Assembly: GCA_019634795.1 (NCBI GenBank)
Contig: JAHCAR010000002.1
Location: 186,001 to 250,000 of the forward strand
Direction: 5' to 3'
Origin: Dokdonella sp.
GTDB taxonomy: Bacteria > Pseudomonadota > Gammaproteobacteria > Xanthomonadales > Rhodanobacteraceae
DNA: 64,000 nucleotides
The position numbers and the translations under genes are program-made. Below the pieces are notes generated by a model. The model made no database searches. It was given only the letters and a program-made list of their open reading frames with translations, and had not been told where the DNA came from. This document shows, one piece after another, positions 5,655 through 56,882 of this stretch. Position 1 is the first letter of the stretch, and each line of letters begins with the position of its first letter.

Positions 5655-5759
5655 GGGGCGGTCCTAGTCAGGAGCCACAACTTCCCTTAGAGTCCGGGGT
5701 TGGCCCGCATCGCGGGACGTCTGCCCATGGAACGGGCCAACTCTTGGGGGAGTTTGCCG

Positions 5760-7277
5760 ATGACCGTTCCATTCCTGCGCATTGCACCCTTGGCCCTCGC
5801 TTGCGCGGCCGCCATGGCTCCGGTTGGCGCCGCCGAGATCGAGGCCGGACTGCGTGCCGAGGCACAGCGGTCCGGCACTGTCGACAGCCTGATCGTGCTC
5901 GCTGCGAAGGCGCCGAAAAACCTGTTGCGCAGTGAAGGAAACTACCTCGAACGTCGGCGCAACCTGGTCGATACGCTGAGGGCGACGGCCGATGTGAGCC
6001 AGGCGGATCTTCGCGCATGGCTCGACGCGCAAGGCATCGCCTATCGTCCGTTCTGGATCGTCAACATGATCGAGGCGTCGCTGACCGCGGGGCAACTCGA
6101 TGCGTTGGCTGGCCGGGAAGATATCGCCAAGATCGAGTCGAATCGGGCTTACAAGCTCAAACAACCGGTCGAGAGCGGCCCGTTTCCCAAGTCTCAGTCC
6201 GAAGGTTCAGCGGAAGGGCCGGAATCGGCCGCACCTCAGGCTATCGAGTGGGGCGTCAACAAGGTCCGTGCTCCAATGGTCTGGGCTGCCGGATATACGG
6301 GCCAGGGCGTCGTGATTGCCGGACAGGACACCGGCATCCGCTGGACGCACAACGCGATCAAGTCCAAGTACCGCGGCTGGAACGGAGTGATGGCGGATCA
6401 CAACTACAACTGGCACGACTCCATCCATGTCACCGGAAGCTCCTGCGGTGCCGATTCGCCGTTTCCCTGCGACGATCACGGCCATGGCAGCCATACGATC
6501 GGCACAATGGTCGGCGATGACGGCAACGGCAATCAGGTCGGCGTGGCGCCTGGCGCGAAATGGATCGGCTGCCGCAACATGAATTCCGGCGACGGTACCC
6601 CGGCAAGGTACAACGAGTGCGCGCAGTGGTTTCTGGCACCGACCGACCTGAGCGGAGCCAACCCGAACCCCGATCTGGCGCCCGACGTGATCAGCAATTC
6701 CTGGGGATGTCCGGCCAGTGAAGGCTGTACCGCGGGTGATGAAATCCGGCAGGCGATCGAAAACCTGGTCGCAGGCGGTATCGTTTTCGTCGTCGCGGCG
6801 GGCAACGGTGGCTCATCCTGTGGCGGCATCATCGACCCGCCGGCGATTTACGATGCATCGTTCACGATCGGATCGATGACCTCGAGCGATACGATGTCGA
6901 GCTTCTCGCTGCGTGGACCGGGCCTGGGTTCATCAAGCACCAAGCCTGACGTCATCGCACCCGGTTCGAACGTGCGTTCGATCAACAATTCCAGCGATTC
7001 GGGCTACATGACCATCAGCGGCACCAGCATGGCAACGCCCCATGTGGCCGGCGTGGTCGCGTTGCTCATGTCGGCCAATCCTGCTCTGAAGGGCGATCCA
7101 GCGCGGGTCGCGCAGATCCTCAGGGATACCGCGGTACCGATCAGCGATTCGCAGGTCTGCGGAGGTGTCCCTGCGACTACGTATCCCAATCCGGTTCAGG
7201 GCATGGGCCGCGTCGACGCCTGGAATGCCTATCAGCTCGCTACCGAAATGATCTTCGTCGACAGTTTCGAGGATTGA
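5760..7277 (+). CDS. Secreted S8 (subtilisin-like) serine protease with C-terminal F-x-D-x-F tail
   Basis: Extracellular subtilase of 505 residues. The ATG at 5760 has a GGGGAG ribosome site and gives a Sec signal peptide (basic-poor, FLRIAPLALACAAAMA, cleavage near AAEIEAG); an upstream in-frame start would bury this signal. A propeptide-like region spans about residues 30-135. The catalytic domain shows Asp in IAGQDTGIRW, His in DDHGHGSHTIG, oxyanion Asn in VVAAGNGG, and Ser in SGTSMATPHVAG. The protein ends in EMIFVDSFED, a short tail shared with three other exported proteins of this window (see findings). It is monocistronic between nadK and a nucleotidase gene. Substrate unknown. Confidence 0.93.
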   Translation: MTVPFLRIAPLALACAAAMAPVGAAEIEAGLRAEAQRSGTVDSLIVLAAKAPKNLLRSEGNYLERRRNLVDTLRATADVSQADLRAWLDAQGIAYRPFWIVNMIEASLTAGQLDALAGREDIAKIESNRAYKLKQPVESGPFPKSQSEGSAEGPESAAPQAIEWGVNKVRAPMVWAAGYTGQGVVIAGQDTGIRWTHNAIKSKYRGWNGVMADHNYNWHDSIHVTGSSCGADSPFPCDDHGHGSHTIGTMVGDDGNGNQVGVAPGAKWIGCRNMNSGDGTPARYNECAQWFLAPTDLSGANPNPDLAPDVISNSWGCPASEGCTAGDEIRQAIENLVAGGIVFVVAAGNGGSSCGGIIDPPAIYDASFTIGSMTSSDTMSSFSLRGPGLGSSSTKPDVIAPGSNVRSINNSSDSGYMTISGTSMATPHVAGVVALLMSANPALKGDPARVAQILRDTAVPISDSQVCGGVPATTYPNPVQGMGRVDAWNAYQLATEMIFVDSFED

Positions 7278-16908: not shown

Positions 16909-18321
16909 TTAGTCGAACCCATCCGCAAACACCGCGTCGAAGTTGTCCGGCGGCAGGTCGGGGCCCTGGAAGATGCCCAATGGGGTATAGCCCGAGTATC
17001 CAGGGAAGACGTAGTAGATGTTCGGGTTGCCCATGCGCCGGATCAGGGCTTCGGAGATGATGCGCCGGTAGTCGGTGGTCACGGCGACGTCGGTGCCCTG
17101 GTAGAGCTGGGCCGTGGCGAGACCGGGAATTGAGCCGTAGACCTGGCCACCGTTGACCGAGCCGCCGAGCGCCATCATCACGTTGCCGTAGCCGTGGTCG
17201 GTGCCGCCATCGGCGTTTTCCTGCACGCGCCGGCCGAACTCGCTGACCACGATCACGCTGGTCCGCTGCATGAGGTTGCCCGAGGCGCTGCTGGCGAGAT
17301 CGGTGTAGAACGCGCTGAGCCCGCCGGACAGGCTCGAGACCTGGTTGCCGAACCAGTCGTAGGACTGGGTCGGGTTGCCCTGACCGACATGGGTATCCCA
17401 GTTGCCAAGGTCGATCGTGGCTACGCGCAGGCCGAGGTTGCTCTTGATCAACTGGGCGACGTTGCGCAGCTGGTCGCCGAAACCCTGGTTGTAGTCGAGC
17501 GTGTAGTTGGCGCCACCGGTCGGCTGATAACCGCCCGGGTTGCTGGTCGCGTTGTAGAGGCCGAAGTTGATCGGCCGCAGCAGGTCGAGCGAGGCCAGGG
17601 TCTCGACGCCGGCCGCTTCGAGCTGGGTTGCATTGCCGGTCCACAGCGAATGCATGCGCGAGACCGCGCCGACCAGGCCGTGCGCGCTGTCGTCGTCCTG
17701 CCATGACCAGTGGAAGCCGTCGAGGCGAAAATCCGAAGCGCTGTTCATGGTGATTGCATCGGAGCTGCCGAGCAGGCTGCTGGCCGTGATGTTGCCCATC
17801 GAGGTCGCCGGCAGCGCGACCGTGCCGGGCAGGCCGCCACTGGCCAGGTGCCGGGTCAGCCAGCCGATGTTGGTGCCGGTGCCGCCGCCGAAACCGAATT
17901 CGAGGTTGGCCTGGGCGTCGAAGTGGCTGCGGATGACCGGATTCGGCTGGGTCTGGCCCGCGCCGACGATGAAGGCGAGCCGGTTCTGGTTGAACAGGGT
18001 ACGCAGGCCGGTTGCGCGCGGATGCAGGGCCCAGTTTGTGCCATTCAGCGAGAGCGCGGCACCCGTGCCCGAAGTCGGAATTCGGGTATCGGTCCGCGCG
18101 GCCTCGTAGTCGGCCCGATACGGACTGGCCGCGCCGGGCGGCAGCAGGCTCAGGCCATCCATGGCGCCGCGCAGGAACACGATCACCAGGGTGTCATTGG
18201 TCGCCGTTGCCGGCATCACGCCAGGCGCCGAGAAATAGGCAAAGGCACGGCCGCTGGCGCCGCTGGCCAGGGCTGCCACGCTGCAGCCCTTCAGGAAGTC
18301 GCGTCGATTGATATGGGTCAT
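16909..18321 (-). CDS. DUF1501 family protein with Tat signal and C-terminal F-x-D-G-F-D tail
   Basis: Exported protein of 470 residues. The N-terminus MTHINRRDFLKG followed by AAL-rich sequence is a twin-arginine signal peptide. The DUF1501 (sulfatase/phosphatase-fold) body includes DTLVIVFLRGAMDGLSLLPP, NWALHPRATGLRTLFNQ, ATIDLGNWDTHVGQG, TSVIVVSEFGRRVQENADGGTDHGYGNVMMALGG, which carry the alkaline-phosphatase-like metal-ligand pattern. It ends DAVFADGFD. The ATG at 18321 lies 11 bp after the stop of the DUF1800 gene, and its GAGGAG ribosome site overlaps that stop, so the two are translated from one message. The pair is widespread, but its biochemical role is unknown. Confidence 0.9.
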   Translation of the reverse strand: MTHINRRDFLKGCSVAALASGASGRAFAYFSAPGVMPATATNDTLVIVFLRGAMDGLSLLPPGAASPYRADYEAARTDTRIPTSGTGAALSLNGTNWALHPRATGLRTLFNQNRLAFIVGAGQTQPNPVIRSHFDAQANLEFGFGGGTGTNIGWLTRHLASGGLPGTVALPATSMGNITASSLLGSSDAITMNSASDFRLDGFHWSWQDDDSAHGLVGAVSRMHSLWTGNATQLEAAGVETLASLDLLRPINFGLYNATSNPGGYQPTGGANYTLDYNQGFGDQLRNVAQLIKSNLGLRVATIDLGNWDTHVGQGNPTQSYDWFGNQVSSLSGGLSAFYTDLASSASGNLMQRTSVIVVSEFGRRVQENADGGTDHGYGNVMMALGGSVNGGQVYGSIPGLATAQLYQGTDVAVTTDYRRIISEALIRRMGNPNIYYVFPGYSGYTPLGIFQGPDLPPDNFDAVFADGFD

Positions 18322-18332
18322 GACAGCGCTCC

Positions 18333-20198
18333 TCAGCGACGCAGGAATTCGGGACTGCACAGGATCAGGCCGACTGCCGTGCGCAGTCGGGCAATCGTGT
18401 AGTGCTTGGAAAGATCGTTGAGATTCCAGGTGCCGATATGCGCCGGATGGCCGTTGTCGGTGCCGTCGGTGATCAGGTCGAGCACGGCACCGGCAGCGAC
18501 GTTCTGGCGCAGGAAATCGACGGCCACACTGTAGGTCGGCTCGGGACGGTAGCCGAGGATGCGATCGCACCAGTAGCCGATGACGTTGGCGGCGGTGCGC
18601 TGGTTGGCGGCCAATGCGGCCAGGGTCTGGGCCTGGATGTCGATCAGGAACGGATAGGCATTGTTGTAGCTTTCGGTCTGGTGCATTTCGAGCAGGCGCG
18701 GCAGCATGCGCAGGGTCATGCCGAGCGTGCCCGTGCTCGACCAGGCGATCGCATCGTCCGGGTAGCCATTCGGCGCCGGCCAGTAGAACAGCCGCTGGCC
18801 GGCGGCCTGCAGGCGTCCCATGAACTCCTCGGTCGGCGTATAGGTCGTCGTGTTGTCGGGCTTCGGCGTAAAGTCGGCGCCGGTGGCGCGCAAGGTACTG
18901 ACCGCGCTGAGGGCCGGGCGCTTCATCGCGGTACCCCAGCTGCTCTTGAATTCGGCCGATTGCAGGATGACCTGCAGGACCTGGGCGATCTGGTTGCTGG
19001 CCTGCCATTGCTGCTGGAACACGCTGGCGGCGCTGTCGATCAGCGCCGCAGACGGCGTCGAGCCGACGAAGCGTCGGCAGATTTTGGTCGCGACATGGCG
19101 TGCCGTGGATGGATGACGCGCCAGCATGTCGAACAGGGTGGTGCCATCGACTTGCCCCTGCGAGGCGGCGAAGTAGCGCGCGAGGATGCGTTTGACGCCC
19201 TGGTCATGGGTGTTCGAGTCGTAGGCGAACTGGCCGAGCGGTACGTTGTTGATTTCGGTGTAGGGCCAGTTCGATCCCGAGATGGTCCAGCCGGTCAGCG
19301 CGCGCGCGGCTTCGTAGATGTCGTCATCCACGTACTTGAGCCGTTCCTCCTCGCCATCGGGTGCGGTGTAATGGCCGAGCAAGGTCATGTTGGCGAAGCT
19401 GTCCGGATTCTGCACGATGCCGCCGTAATGCTCGGCGCCCATCGTGTGCAGTTCGAACAGTTCGCGTGCGTAGTTCTCGTTCGGGTGCGAGGCCTCGTTC
19501 GAATAGAGGTCGAGCATGTACATCATCGAGGCAGACTCGCCGACCGCCTGCAGCATGGTGCGGAAGTTGCCGAAGACGTGCGGCCGGATCGCGAGGCGGT
19601 CGAAGGCCGGGAACATCGGTCCACCGTCGTAGTCCCAGCCGAACACGCTGAAGTGGTCATGCCAGAAATCGACCATGACCTCCTGGAGCTGGCGTCGGCT
19701 GTAGGTCTGCCGAATGACCGTCGCGCACTCGGTCTCGGAGACCGGTAGCATGCGCAGGTAGTAGTTGGTGGTGACCGAGTGGTGGTCATTCCACAACTGG
19801 TTGGCGCTCTTGTTGAGGGTCGTGAACGCGGCGCTGGCGATGCGCGCATCACAGGCGCTGTCGCTGATCGTCGCGGGCGCTAGCTGCTGGTTGACCCAGG
19901 CGGTCCAGCGCGCATCGTCGTTGGCACCCAGGGCATTGAAATCCGCCTGCTCCTGGACCGTGTAGCCGAACGTGCAGCGGCTCAGCCAGCGCACCGCGGC
20001 TGGCGGAAAGCTCAGCACGGCCGGGCTCTGCGGCAGGTCATCCTCGCGGAAGCCATCGCGTCCGGGGCGGCGCATCGCCAGCGACGGATCGATGTCCTCG
20101 ATACCGGCACTGGTGAACAACGCAGCGAACAGGCGTCGGCGCGACTGGACAAAGGAGGCACTGCTGGGGGCTGCGGCCATGGAACGCGCTCCATTCAT
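18333..20198 (-). CDS. DUF1800 family protein
   Basis: Protein of 621 residues, first gene of the DUF1800-DUF1501 pair. Family segments include AAVRWLSRCTFGYTVQEQADF, VMVDFWHDHFSVFGWDYDG, DLYSNEASHPNENYARELFELHTMG, YEAARALTGWTISG, LFDMLARHPSTARHVATKICRRFV and LRTAVGLILCSPEFLRR at the very end. The start could be ATG at 20198 (used) or the ATG 18 bases downstream. No classical signal peptide is seen, though a weak hydrophobic stretch (RRLFAALFTSAG) lies near the N-terminus. Known co-occurrence with DUF1501 suggests a joint envelope function; the substrate is unknown. Confidence 0.88.
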   Translation of the reverse strand: MNGARSMAAAPSSASFVQSRRRLFAALFTSAGIEDIDPSLAMRRPGRDGFREDDLPQSPAVLSFPPAAVRWLSRCTFGYTVQEQADFNALGANDDARWTAWVNQQLAPATISDSACDARIASAAFTTLNKSANQLWNDHHSVTTNYYLRMLPVSETECATVIRQTYSRRQLQEVMVDFWHDHFSVFGWDYDGGPMFPAFDRLAIRPHVFGNFRTMLQAVGESASMMYMLDLYSNEASHPNENYARELFELHTMGAEHYGGIVQNPDSFANMTLLGHYTAPDGEEERLKYVDDDIYEAARALTGWTISGSNWPYTEINNVPLGQFAYDSNTHDQGVKRILARYFAASQGQVDGTTLFDMLARHPSTARHVATKICRRFVGSTPSAALIDSAASVFQQQWQASNQIAQVLQVILQSAEFKSSWGTAMKRPALSAVSTLRATGADFTPKPDNTTTYTPTEEFMGRLQAAGQRLFYWPAPNGYPDDAIAWSSTGTLGMTLRMLPRLLEMHQTESYNNAYPFLIDIQAQTLAALAANQRTAANVIGYWCDRILGYRPEPTYSVAVDFLRQNVAAGAVLDLITDGTDNGHPAHIGTWNLNDLSKHYTIARLRTAVGLILCSPEFLRR

Positions 20199-27795: not shown

Positions 27796-28974
27796 CTAAT
27801 CGAAGCTGCCGTTGAACAGGACATCATTGATCAGAACGGAAAGGCTGCCCGATTCATAGTCGAGGACGGCAAGATCCGGGCTGCCATCGGCGTTGAAGTC
27901 TGCGGCGGCGATCGTCGAAGGGGACGTTCCGAGCGGAATGATCTGCGGCAGCCCGAAGATTCCGTTCGCGCTGCCGCGGAAGATCTCGACCGTGCCCATG
28001 CGAAAGTCGGCGACCGCGAGATCTAGGTTGCCGTCGGCGTCCAGGTCCGCGGCTACGATCGAATTGGGTTCCGAGTCGACCCATCCCGCACTCGAAAGCG
28101 GGTACTCGATGGCGGGCGCAAATGATCCGTCCCCATAACCCTTGACGACCGAGATCGAGGCGCCCTCGCCATTGGCCACGGCGATGTCCACAATTCCGTC
28201 GTGATCGAAATCGGCGGCGACGAGTGAGCGGGGATTGGCTCCCACCGTATAGTGCGTCGGAGCGCCGAACTGGCCGTTCCCCGCGCCGAGAAGAATGGTC
28301 AGGCGTCCTACGCCCCAACTGACCTGCGCGATGTCCGCGTGGCCATCGCCGTTGAAGTCGGCCGAAACATTGGAAATCGGCGAGTCGCCGGAGTCGAACT
28401 CGGTTCGTGCCTGAAAGGTCCCGTTGCCGTTTCCGAGCAGCACCGAAATGCTGCTGCCTTCCGAATTGGTCGTGATGAGGTCCAGCTTGCCGTCGTGGTT
28501 GGTGTCGACCGCGACAACGGAGGTCGGACAGGTGCCGGCCTGCTGGAGGGTCTGGGCCAGGAATGTTCCATTGCCGACGCCAAGCGCGACGGACACATAG
28601 AACGGGCCGCCATACTGGCTCGTGACGGCATAGTCGGGTTTGCCATCGCCATTGAAATCGCCGGTCGCCAGTGGCTGTGGGTGGTGGAAAATGCGCCCAT
28701 CGGGAGCCGAGGCATAGCTGACGGGTGGTGCGAACTGCGCTGTACCGCTGCCGAGAAGAACCGACACGGAGGAAGTGTAATCGCGTGCGGCAATCACGTC
28801 GGGACGACCATCATGATTGAAGTCCGCGACCACCATGCCGGCGGGCTTGTCGCCGGCGGGCGATGAACCTGAGTCGAGGAATGCGAATTCGGCCGAGGCC
28901 GGGCACGGCACGGTCAGCGCGGCAATCGCCGAGCTGCAAGTCGCCGCGACGAGAAGGATTCCTGGGCGGTTCAC
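27796..28974 (-). CDS. Secreted FG-GAP/VCBS repeat beta-propeller protein with C-terminal F-x-G-S-F-D tail
   Basis: Exported protein of 392 residues. A signal peptide (GILLVAATCSSAIAALTVPCPASA) precedes a chain of FG-GAP/VCBS repeats, each with the calcium-binding core DFNGDGxxD: DFNHDGRPDVI, DFNGDGKPDYA, DTNHDGKLDLI, DFNGDGHADIA, DFDHDGIVDIA, DLDADGNLDLA and DFNADGSPDLA, seven in all, enough for one integrin-like propeller. The last residues, DVLFNGSFD, match the tails of three other exported proteins here. The role may be surface adhesion or ligand binding, but the repeats alone do not specify it. Monocistronic. Confidence 0.9.
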   Translation of the reverse strand: MNRPGILLVAATCSSAIAALTVPCPASAEFAFLDSGSSPAGDKPAGMVVADFNHDGRPDVIAARDYTSSVSVLLGSGTAQFAPPVSYASAPDGRIFHHPQPLATGDFNGDGKPDYAVTSQYGGPFYVSVALGVGNGTFLAQTLQQAGTCPTSVVAVDTNHDGKLDLITTNSEGSSISVLLGNGNGTFQARTEFDSGDSPISNVSADFNGDGHADIAQVSWGVGRLTILLGAGNGQFGAPTHYTVGANPRSLVAADFDHDGIVDIAVANGEGASISVVKGYGDGSFAPAIEYPLSSAGWVDSEPNSIVAADLDADGNLDLAVADFRMGTVEIFRGSANGIFGLPQIIPLGTSPSTIAAADFNADGSPDLAVLDYESGSLSVLINDVLFNGSFD

Positions 28975-38283: not shown

Positions 38284-39486
38284 ATGCGTTTTCCCATGGT
38301 TATGTTCAGTCTCGGCCTCGTCGGAGACGCCTGCGCCGCCACCATCAACGTCACCACGACCGACGACACCATTGCGGCCGATGGCCAGTGCAGCCTGCGC
38401 GAAGCGATCACGGCGGCCAATCTCGATTCCGCCTTCAACGGCTGCACGGCCGGCAATGGCGTCGACTCGATCATTCTCGCCGCGGCCGAATACCGGTTCG
38501 ATATCGCCGGCGCCAACGAGGACGCCAATGCCAGTGGCGATCTGGATGTGCGCAGCAGCCTGAGCATTGTCGGTCCCGGCGCCGACGTGGCCCGGATCCG
38601 CGGCGATCGCGAGGACCGCGTGTTCGATCTCGGCCCGCCAGGGGCTGGTCAGACGATCGTGGTCGGCATTTCCGGAGTAACCATCCGCAATGGCGGCGGC
38701 GCGCTGGGCGGCGCGATACTCAATCGCGAGGACGTCGACCTGAGCGTTTCGTCGGTGTCATTCACCGGCAATGCGGCGAGCCAGGGTGCCGGAATCGCCT
38801 CGTTCGGCCTGCTTGATGTCGATCGCTCGGTATTCCACGCCAACGATGCCGATGAGGGCGGGGCCATATGGACCTCGGCCTCGGGAGTCGCCAGCATTCG
38901 CAACGTCACCTTCGACTCGAACACCAGTACCGGGTCCGGTTCGGCCGCCGTGTTCGGCGCGGCGGCAACCCTGAACAATGTCACTGCGAGCCAGAACATC
39001 GCGGACAGCGATTTCGACGACAGCGGTGACGGCGCCATCGATATCCGCGCCAGCGTGACGATCGCGAACAGCATCATTGCGCGCAATGTCGACCTGAGCC
39101 TCGGTGGCAGCGCGCTGCTCAATCCGGACTGCGTGAGCGGTGGCGGCGCCTTCGATTCCGCCGGCCACAACCTGATTGGCAACCTCGGCAATGTCTGCGT
39201 TCTCGGCAATGCCCAGGCCAGCGACCAGACCGGCAATCCGGCCCAGCCGATCAATCCCTTGTTGCAGCCCTTCGCCCTGTATGGCGGGACCGTCGAGGTT
39301 TTCCTGCCGACCGCCGCCAGCCCCGCCGTGGAACGCGGCAGTCCTGCGCCAACCGGCAGCGCCGGTGCCTGCGAAGAGACCGATGCGCGTGGCGTGCCGC
39401 GGCCGCAGGCGGCGCGCTGCGACATCGGCGCGGCCGAACTCGACGACCTGATCTTCATAGACGGTTTCGATCCGGCATTGCCCTGA
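38284..39486 (+). CDS. Secreted CSLREA-domain beta-helix protein with C-terminal F-x-D-G-F-D tail
   Basis: Exported protein of 400 residues. The ATG at 38284 gives a short signal (RFPMVMFSLGLVGDACA). The CSLREA domain follows at once: TINVTTTDDTIAADGQCSLREAITAAN. The body is a right-handed beta-helix of the pectate-lyase type with stacked asparagines and repeats such as SVSFTGNAASQGAGIASFG and NVTFDSNTSTGSGSAAVFG. A DxGAAE region near the end (RCDIGAAELDD) is followed by LIFIDGFDPALP, matching the shared tail with four extra residues. Similar proteins act as adhesins or polysaccharide lyases; no catalytic residues are clear. Confidence 0.87.
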   Translation: MRFPMVMFSLGLVGDACAATINVTTTDDTIAADGQCSLREAITAANLDSAFNGCTAGNGVDSIILAAAEYRFDIAGANEDANASGDLDVRSSLSIVGPGADVARIRGDREDRVFDLGPPGAGQTIVVGISGVTIRNGGGALGGAILNREDVDLSVSSVSFTGNAASQGAGIASFGLLDVDRSVFHANDADEGGAIWTSASGVASIRNVTFDSNTSTGSGSAAVFGAAATLNNVTASQNIADSDFDDSGDGAIDIRASVTIANSIIARNVDLSLGGSALLNPDCVSGGGAFDSAGHNLIGNLGNVCVLGNAQASDQTGNPAQPINPLLQPFALYGGTVEVFLPTAASPAVERGSPAPTGSAGACEETDARGVPRPQAARCDIGAAELDDLIFIDGFDPALP

Positions 39487-55997: not shown

Positions 55998-56882
55998 ATG
56001 AGATTTGGAAATTCCTGGGTACTTGCCACGGGTCTGGTCGTATCGACCTTGGCCATGGCGCAATCGCACGAAACCTACAACCCGGCCGAGCCGCTGCGCA
56101 CCACCTTCGATGCTGGCGCACCCCTGCAGGTCCTGGGCGGCGCCCTGCTCGATACCCGTTCGGGTCTCGTCAACTTCCCGGGCGGTGGCGCGGGTGGTGC
56201 GGACGCATCGCGTCTGCAGAACTCGAGCCTGGGCATGTCGACAATCGGACTCAACGTCTCGTTGGCTGCGCCCGCGCGCCTGGCCGAGGATTTCGTCGTT
56301 CCGGCGTCAGGCTGGACGATCAACGACATCACCGTCTATGCCTATCAAACCGGCTCGCCGACGACCTCGACCCTGACCGAATTCAACTTCCAGATCTGGG
56401 ACGGTGATCCGAGTCTCGGCACCTCGAGTGTCGTCTTCGGCGATACCACGACCAATCGCCTGAGCAGCACGGCGTTCACGAACATTTTCCGCGATACGGA
56501 AACCACGGTCGGCGACACCAACCGTCCGATCATGGCGGCGACTGCCTCGGGGCTGTCGATCGACCTGCCTGCCGGCACATACTGGATCGACTGGCAGCTC
56601 AATGGTTCGCTGGCATCGGGTCCCTGGGCGCCGCCGCTGACCACCAATGGCCAGACGACGACGGGCAATGCCCAGCAATTCTTCGGTGGTGTGTGGGGTC
56701 CTGCCAATGACGGCGGCACGACCACCCAGCAAGGGTTTCCGTTGACCGTTGGTGGCGTGACGGGCGGTGTTCCATTCGTGGCGCCGCGCGAGCTGCCGGT
56801 CAATTCGCCGATGCTGCTGGCGGGCCTGCTGGCCGGGCTTGCAGTCTTCGGCCTGCTCGTACTGAAGCGCCGCAGGGCCTGA
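55998..56882 (+). CDS. Secreted protein with C-terminal membrane anchor of sorting-signal type
   Basis: Protein of 294 residues. The signal is MRFGNSWVLATGLVVSTLAMAQS. The mature part is beta-rich (FVVPASGWTINDITVYAYQTGS, PAGTYWIDWQLNGS) with no family I recognise; it resembles concanavalin/jelly-roll exported domains. It ends in PRELPVNSPMLLAGLLAGL then VFGLLVLKRRRA: a proline-containing motif, one membrane helix and a basic tail, the layout of C-terminal sorting signals such as IPTL-CTERM or PEP-CTERM. It has its own terminator. Confidence 0.75.
   Translation: MRFGNSWVLATGLVVSTLAMAQSHETYNPAEPLRTTFDAGAPLQVLGGALLDTRSGLVNFPGGGAGGADASRLQNSSLGMSTIGLNVSLAAPARLAEDFVVPASGWTINDITVYAYQTGSPTTSTLTEFNFQIWDGDPSLGTSSVVFGDTTTNRLSSTAFTNIFRDTETTVGDTNRPIMAATASGLSIDLPAGTYWIDWQLNGSLASGPWAPPLTTNGQTTTGNAQQFFGGVWGPANDGGTTTQQGFPLTVGGVTGGVPFVAPRELPVNSPMLLAGLLAGLAVFGLLVLKRRRA

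Follow-up and report, generated by a model that had tools for sequence, protein, structure and literature searches.

A candidate C-terminal sorting tag on unrelated exported proteins of Dokdonella and its relatives, co-distributed with a second type II secretion system

We analysed a stretch of 64,000 nucleotides (the window) from a Dokdonella sp. genome, G000, a 3.87-Mb draft in 51 contigs that is 85% complete; the window is G000:C12:186001-250000. Four of its genes encode unrelated exported proteins that end in a similar short tail:

5727..7277, plus strand: S8 subtilase with a signal peptide, tag carrier (PF00082, E 7e-46; gene call and signal peptide call).
7248..7274, plus strand: tag MIFVDSFED of the subtilase, with D-S replacing D-G (direct reading; C-terminus ...EMIFVDSFED, stop codon 7275-7277).
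16909..18321, minus strand: DUF1501 protein with a Tat signal, tag carrier (PF07394 and TAT_signal_seq, TIGR01409, above cut-offs).
16912..16938, minus strand: tag DAVFADGFD of the DUF1501 protein (direct reading; C-terminus ...DAVFADGFD, stop codon 16909-16911).
27796..28974, minus strand: FG-GAP repeat protein with a signal peptide, tag carrier (PF13517, E 3e-66; signal peptide call).
27799..27825, minus strand: tag DVLFNGSFD of the FG-GAP protein (direct reading; C-terminus ...DVLFNGSFD, stop codon 27796-27798).
38302..39486, plus strand: CSLREA / choice-of-anchor Q protein, tag carrier (TIGR04214 and NF041518 above cut-offs).
39448..39483, plus strand: tag LIFIDGFD, then PALP, of the CSLREA protein (direct reading; C-terminus ...LIFIDGFDPALP, stop codon 39484-39486).

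The original prediction held that these four proteins share a C-terminal tail and carry a Sec or Tat signal, and that the other exported proteins of the window lack the tail. All four tails were found where it had placed them, and the four carrier families were confirmed. Signal peptides were found in the subtilase, the FG-GAP protein and, once the called start is moved 18 codons upstream, the CSLREA protein, while TIGR01409 identified the Tat signal of the DUF1501 protein. We scanned the window in six frames, taking stop-to-stop frames from about 60 codons upwards. Only these four proteins have the motif F.[DNGS][GSA]F[DE] in their last 25 residues, and it never occurred further inside any scanned frame. 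The other exported proteins named in the prediction are tail-less. Individual checks covered a lipoprotein-like protein, the azurin-family protein and one whose match to cytochrome c is weak (22 of 27 bits); for the EF-hand and DUF3187 proteins the basis is the six-frame scan only. When the C-terminal 25 residues of the 63 genes called in the window were shuffled, 0.007 tails arose per trial and at least four tails in 0 of 20,000 trials, which rejects a chance origin of the four tails. A single-sequence AlphaFold model of the FG-GAP protein had a mean pLDDT of 45 and was uninformative about the tail.

Directly upstream of the tailed DUF1501 gene lies a gene for a DUF1800 protein with a Tat-like start (18333-20180, minus strand; PF08811). 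This protein has no tail, so the DUF1800/DUF1501 pair has one tagged member only. Elsewhere in the window, an exported protein with no family above its cut-off (55998-56882, plus strand) has a C-terminal hydrophobic stretch and a KRRRA end, resembling a CTERM anchor.

Across the G000 genome, the DNA pattern TTYNNNGAYRGNTTYGAN had 52 matches, versus two for the reversed pattern. The motif lay 0-11 residues before the stop of its frame in 26 of the 30 loci returned, and not near the frame's stop in the other four (L005, L014, L019 and L024). The motifs LIFADGFE in L005 and ALFHDGFE in L019 are 88 and 56 residues from the frame end; each of the two could reflect a lost stop, a frame error or a genuine internal copy. 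The returned 3-kb loci, the window and some 744 kb of stretches supplied 54 different tails, whose consensus is D-x-I-F-A-[DN]-G-F-[DE]. The general form of the tag is D-x-[IL]-F-x-[DN]-G-F-[DE], usually 0-3 residues before the end: no residue follows the motif in 20 of the 54 tails, one to three follow in 23, and some residue follows in 34. The tails were picked by motif positions 0 and 2-5, so that conservation at these positions is partly by construction. Positions outside the selection are also conserved, with D at -3 in 46 tails and I or L at -1 in 53. In all 54, the final 40 residues lack a hydrophobic span; one tail has three K/R in its last 10 residues and one ends in an aromatic residue.

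The 18-mers that encode the tail are distinct in 49 of the 54 cases, and GGC, GGA, GGG and GGT are all used for the motif G. This diversity places conservation and selection at the protein level, and it rejects a DNA repeat as the source of the tails. Codon use at the second motif F is skewed, with TTC in 53 of the 54 tails versus 87% genome-wide (p 0.005); at the first F, TTC is used in only 40. That the tag is real, conserved as protein and C-terminal is well supported.

The tail is associated with export. The window and stretches together have 672 called genes, 30 of them tailed. With a strict start, 22 of these 30 have a predicted signal peptide, compared with 177 of the 642 untailed proteins (p 5e-7); with nearby starts allowed, the counts rise to 26 of 30 and 264 of 642. 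Gene and signal-peptide calls follow home-made rules, which makes these counts approximate. The four tailed proteins missed are the window Tat protein, for which TIGR01409 confirms the signal, two proteins with visible signal sequences and one 66-residue fragment. Excluded from this count were 24 of the 54 tails that are known only from 3-kb pattern loci, many of them N-terminally cut. The pattern-centred stretches are unrepresentative in tail density; the 396 genes of the other stretches and the window together hold seven tails, four of them in the window. Only 10 untailed proteins among the called genes have the motif further inside. The outcomes that would have refuted the original prediction did not arise: the tails sit mostly on exported proteins rather than equally on non-exported ones, and no single fold accounts for them. 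Around 15 pattern matches in four further tail-positive genomes, gene calling yielded 15 tail genes in 14 regions (one region had none), and a signal peptide was called for nine of these genes. Most tailed proteins carry the Sec or Tat signal expected of type II secretion system (T2SS) cargo, and the median length of tailed proteins is 604 versus 281 for other soluble signal-peptide proteins.

Carrier families include beta-helices, FG-GAP proteins, kelch and other propellers, the subtilase, an M12-type metallopeptidase, MauG-like proteins and DUF1501. These many unrelated folds reject a restriction of the tail to a single fold; it is not bound to one fold, as it might be if it were part of its carriers' domains. 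Ten of the 54 tailed proteins matched choice-of-anchor Q (E up to 0.001). At the same threshold there were matches to rhombosortase-dependent M36 (three), choice-of-anchor B, myxosortase-dependent M36 and rhombotarget A (two each); curated cut-offs were checked for window proteins only, where choice-of-anchor Q passes and rhombotarget A fails. The five families just named were absent among families with at least two members in an untailed signal-peptide control, which comprised 50 of 120 such proteins and included some plainly cytosolic false positives. These carrier families take their names from C-terminal anchors or sorting enzymes, so the tail, which follows choice-of-anchor and similar domains, occupies the position that other bacteria give to sorting signals and anchors like GlyGly-CTERM or MYXO-CTERM. 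The F510_1955 domain occurs in three of the 54 tailed proteins; in the tail-less genome G451, the C-terminus of an F510_1955 protein (L150:15174-18503) is a hydrophobic stretch with RRRRA in place of the tail, and the gene of this protein is the fourth after a gspCDEF-like run.

The original prediction allowed for similar ends in related genomes, and we found them in 45 of 197 genomes of Rhodanobacteraceae, the family to which NCBI assigns Dokdonella, with family membership assigned from record titles. These 45 had 3-32 matches to the stop-anchored pattern TTYNNNRAYGGNTTYGANTRR and the other 152 had 0-1, with one match each in 12 of them; the reversed pattern had eight matches in total. Tail-positive genomes made up 10 of 10 in g1, the genus of G000, 8 of 8 in g2, 2 of 2 in g286, 15 of 16 in g296 and 10 of 16 in g279. 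Genus g287, which first had 2-11 matches, was rejected as tail-positive: its stop-anchored counts of 0-1 indicate that those matches are mostly not stop-adjacent tails. Among 369 genomes sampled from the class, G000 had 36 matches, one family member four and other families 0-3, like the controls. In a phylum sample of 398 genomes, there were at most three stop-anchored matches outside the tail-positive genera. These two samples reject a wider spread. The search for homologues of the window DUF1501 protein (E up to 1e-30) covered five tail-positive genomes, all of which have one, and 23 others, none of which does; all seven homologues have a tail-like end.

A GspD model matched in all 197 family genomes, in 187 above its cut-off. 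A higher-scoring class A secretin (about 527-589 bits) was found only in the tail-positive genera, g295 and g288, and scored 615-635 bits in two g288 genomes. The system to which it belongs, here T2SS-A, is represented in G000 by gspC, gspD, gspE and gspG, with gspF observed in relatives. Its G000 locus (L132) contains rho, trx, rhlB, gspC, gspD and gspE, where rho and trx were assigned by look, and gspG lies away from it, with prepilin-like genes, in L293. The nearest named relative of its GspD is that of Dokdonella immobilis (94%). T2SS-A GspC passes TIGR01713 (104 of 101.6 bits), has PDZ matches below the Pfam gathering score (25 of 27 bits) and aligns with the HR and solved PDZ regions of OutC, PulC and EpsC. 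G000 also has a second cluster, Xps-like by gene order, so T2SS machinery for such cargo is present. Gene order or a look at the sequence served to assign this type of cluster (L128, L224), gspH-K in L293, and gspC and gspF in G451 (L150) and G557 (L215). The T2SS-A locus is not a focus of tail genes, which occur there in three of 18 tail-clade stretches; an additional, looser tail, FASGFQ, lies near it in L132. In another stretch, a gene with the tail variant FANDLE (L133:6592-8052) is directly upstream of gspC, and a tailed gene (L296:11914-12666) lies about 1.5 kb from gspG.

Taking 79% identity or more as the criterion for GspE of T2SS-A (GspE-A; 43 of 197 genomes), tail and GspE-A were both present in 42 genomes, both absent in 151, tail only in three and machine only in one. 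Fisher's p of 4e-38 for this association is overstated, the genomes being related. The three tail-only genomes are fragmented: G404, G481 and G535 are split into about 770, 830 and 150 contigs and are only 80-87% complete. G535 has GspD-A at a contig end. Tail-positive G442 has no GspG-A in a 93% complete assembly. Conversely, the machine-only genome G557 has open gspC-F frames and GspG-A, yet is tail-less; among the seven exported proteins listed for it, one has a C-terminus resembling IPTL-CTERM, just below the models' cut-offs. Related T2SSs without tails are found in g295 (GspE 61-65%), in G521 (67%) and in G539 and G555 (57-58%); counted by genus, they occur in g295 and three g288 genomes. 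This shows that the machine alone does not demand the tag.

We used a tree of the other, non-A secretin from 38 genomes to follow gain and loss; g286 is unsampled in it, three of the six tail-less g279 genomes are included, and six of the 38 rows, a paralogous secretin on a very long branch, were excluded from inference. Tail-positive rows of g1, g2, g296 and g279 form a single clade (support 94/100). Nested inside tail-positive g279 (98/93) are the tail-less genomes G376, G428 and G478, which also lack T2SS-A; GspG-A is absent from G376, G399 and G428. This nesting points to a joint loss, and one g279 sublineage appears to have lost the tail and T2SS-A together. Rhombosortase (TIGR03902) was above its cut-off in 13 of the 197 genomes, all tail-less, and in none of the 45 tail-positive ones. 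The 13 are ten of the 13 g295 genomes and G376, G399 and G428, the latter being three of the six tail-less g279 genomes; the other three have no rhombosortase. In the ten g295 genomes, some 1.1-1.2 kb separate the gene from the secretin of the related T2SS. One of the g295 genomes, G451, has a rhombosortase gene directly upstream of the gspC-like gene of a second T2SS, whose start it overlaps (L150:7362-8803). Both tail-positive g286 genomes (G383 and G404) have a rhombosortase-like gene at 80 and 83 of 84 bits, and most tail-less genomes have neither tail nor rhombosortase. The distribution suggests that the tail and rhombosortase/GlyGly-CTERM are alternative labels for T2SS cargo.

Considering the export bias, the anchor-like position and the co-occurrence with a second T2SS, the proposal of a sorting tag, perhaps linked to T2SS, is supported, with the route deduced from co-occurrence. 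We think it probable that the tail D-x-[IL]-F-x-[DN]-G-F-[DE] serves as a short C-terminal tag that sorts proteins for export through T2SS-A. Large extracellular or surface proteins would cross the inner membrane by Sec or Tat, and the tail would mark them as exported cargo for passage through T2SS-A. The exposed tail would most likely be read in the periplasm by a T2SS-A component, with GspC or the GspD N-domains as first candidates, and one linear label could then suffice for diverse folded cargo. Strict free-carboxylate PDZ recognition of the tail is unlikely, because 34 of the 54 tails have residues after the motif. The tag seems to fill the role held by GlyGly-CTERM and rhombosortase in some relatives. 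A broader reading, in which a shared linear T2SS signal of ~9 residues is read by a lineage-specific GspC, serves dozens to >100 unrelated folded proteins and has replaced GlyGly-CTERM sorting in the clade, is one we put forward tentatively, as possible rather than probable.

The T2SS link is correlational and consists of about one gain and one co-loss, with counter-cases. T2SS was the first candidate partner tried, and other clade-specific genes could fit the tail distribution equally. The other T2SS, whose gene order in G000 and G376 is Xps-like, is an equally possible exporter of the tailed proteins. Alternatively, the tail could be the cognate signal of an enzyme that processes or anchors proteins before or after their secretion, in the manner of rhombosortase with GlyGly-CTERM. 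Such an enzyme might resemble a sortase or a protease, or a receptor on the outer surface might take its place; T2SS-A would be only the route or uninvolved. Its placement after choice-of-anchor domains, its near-exclusion with rhombosortase and the retention of T2SS-A but not the tail in G557 all agree with such a signal, for which the search for a candidate enzyme covered rhombosortase only. Nonetheless, the tripartite tags of known enzymes look different from tails in which a hydrophobic span is never found and three basic residues occur once in 54, and we regard an enzyme signal as rather unlikely.

It is less likely still that the tail and T2SS-A came from the same ancestor by chance and have different jobs, with the tail perhaps serving the other T2SS or periplasmic retention. 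Shared ancestry would account for the single secretin clade of tail-positive g1, g2, g296 and g279, and T2SSs related to T2SS-A do exist without tails. However, tail and T2SS-A are jointly absent from a nested g279 sublineage that retains the other T2SS, and the distribution of the tail is partly complementary to that of rhombosortase. We find it very hard to credit that the tail is a structural end-cap or a spreading DNA element and no signal at all. The repetition itself and the mild TTC excess at the second F are consistent with this, whereas the presence of the tail on unrelated folds, its diverse coding 18-mers with all four G codons and its sharp clade restriction argue against it. Our best reading is that the tail is a C-terminal sorting tag, without an existing name, for T2SS-A cargo.

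Among known systems, the tail most invites comparison with GlyGly-CTERM, which the literature describes as a C-terminal tag on exported proteins, linked to T2SS cargo in Vibrio cholerae. PMC3237569 identified GlyGly-CTERM by pairing a motif with a partner of matching distribution, and our deduction of a sorting partner from co-distribution follows that work. As with GlyGly-CTERM, the tail occurs on many exported proteins per genome, and families named for rhombosortase are among the tailed proteins. The two differ in that GlyGly-CTERM combines a motif with a transmembrane helix and basic residues, while the tail has ~9 residues without either, and in that no tail-positive genome has rhombosortase above its cut-off. 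MYXO-CTERM with myxosortase, PEP-CTERM with exosortase, IPTL-CTERM and LPXTG with sortase are likewise C-terminal sorting signals that address many proteins to one system, but the tail lacks their hydrophobic span and basic cluster. Choice-of-anchor domains precede several of the MYXO-CTERM, PEP-CTERM, IPTL-CTERM and LPXTG-type signals. No NCBIfam sorting-signal model matched at the tail of the four window proteins (E up to 1), nor was one found among the 25 of 42 families listed for the 54 tailed proteins. The C-terminal domain of type IX secretion, of about 80 residues and found in Bacteroidota, is also an address on folded cargo, whereas the tail has ~9 residues and belongs to one gammaproteobacterial family; this domain had no match in the four window proteins or among the same 25 of 42 families. 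Proteins with a BAM beta-signal are outer-membrane barrels with an aromatic last residue, unlike the carriers, which are helix, propeller, protease and similar folds. The tail motif strings were not found in the open-access full texts searched, and among the matches listed, titles and abstract starts in the open-access literature contain nothing on such a tail. The open-access literature listed for Dokdonella together with type II secretion concerns the S-layer protein NpdA. For T2SS itself, a 2021 and a 2025 paper state that no common linear signal is known. The determinants described for PelI/Pel3 (loop 3) and VesB (an Ig-fold with the EpsC PDZ) resemble our proposal in that folded periplasmic cargo is read by GspC or GspD. 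They are structural and substrate-specific, whereas the tail would be a shared linear signal. A nine-residue tag on dozens of proteins, in a lineage that has an extra T2SS of its own, makes the recognition of folded cargo by T2SS open to direct tests in which the tag is deleted or grafted; the tag is also a simple annotation marker for the surface and secreted proteins of Dokdonella and its relatives.
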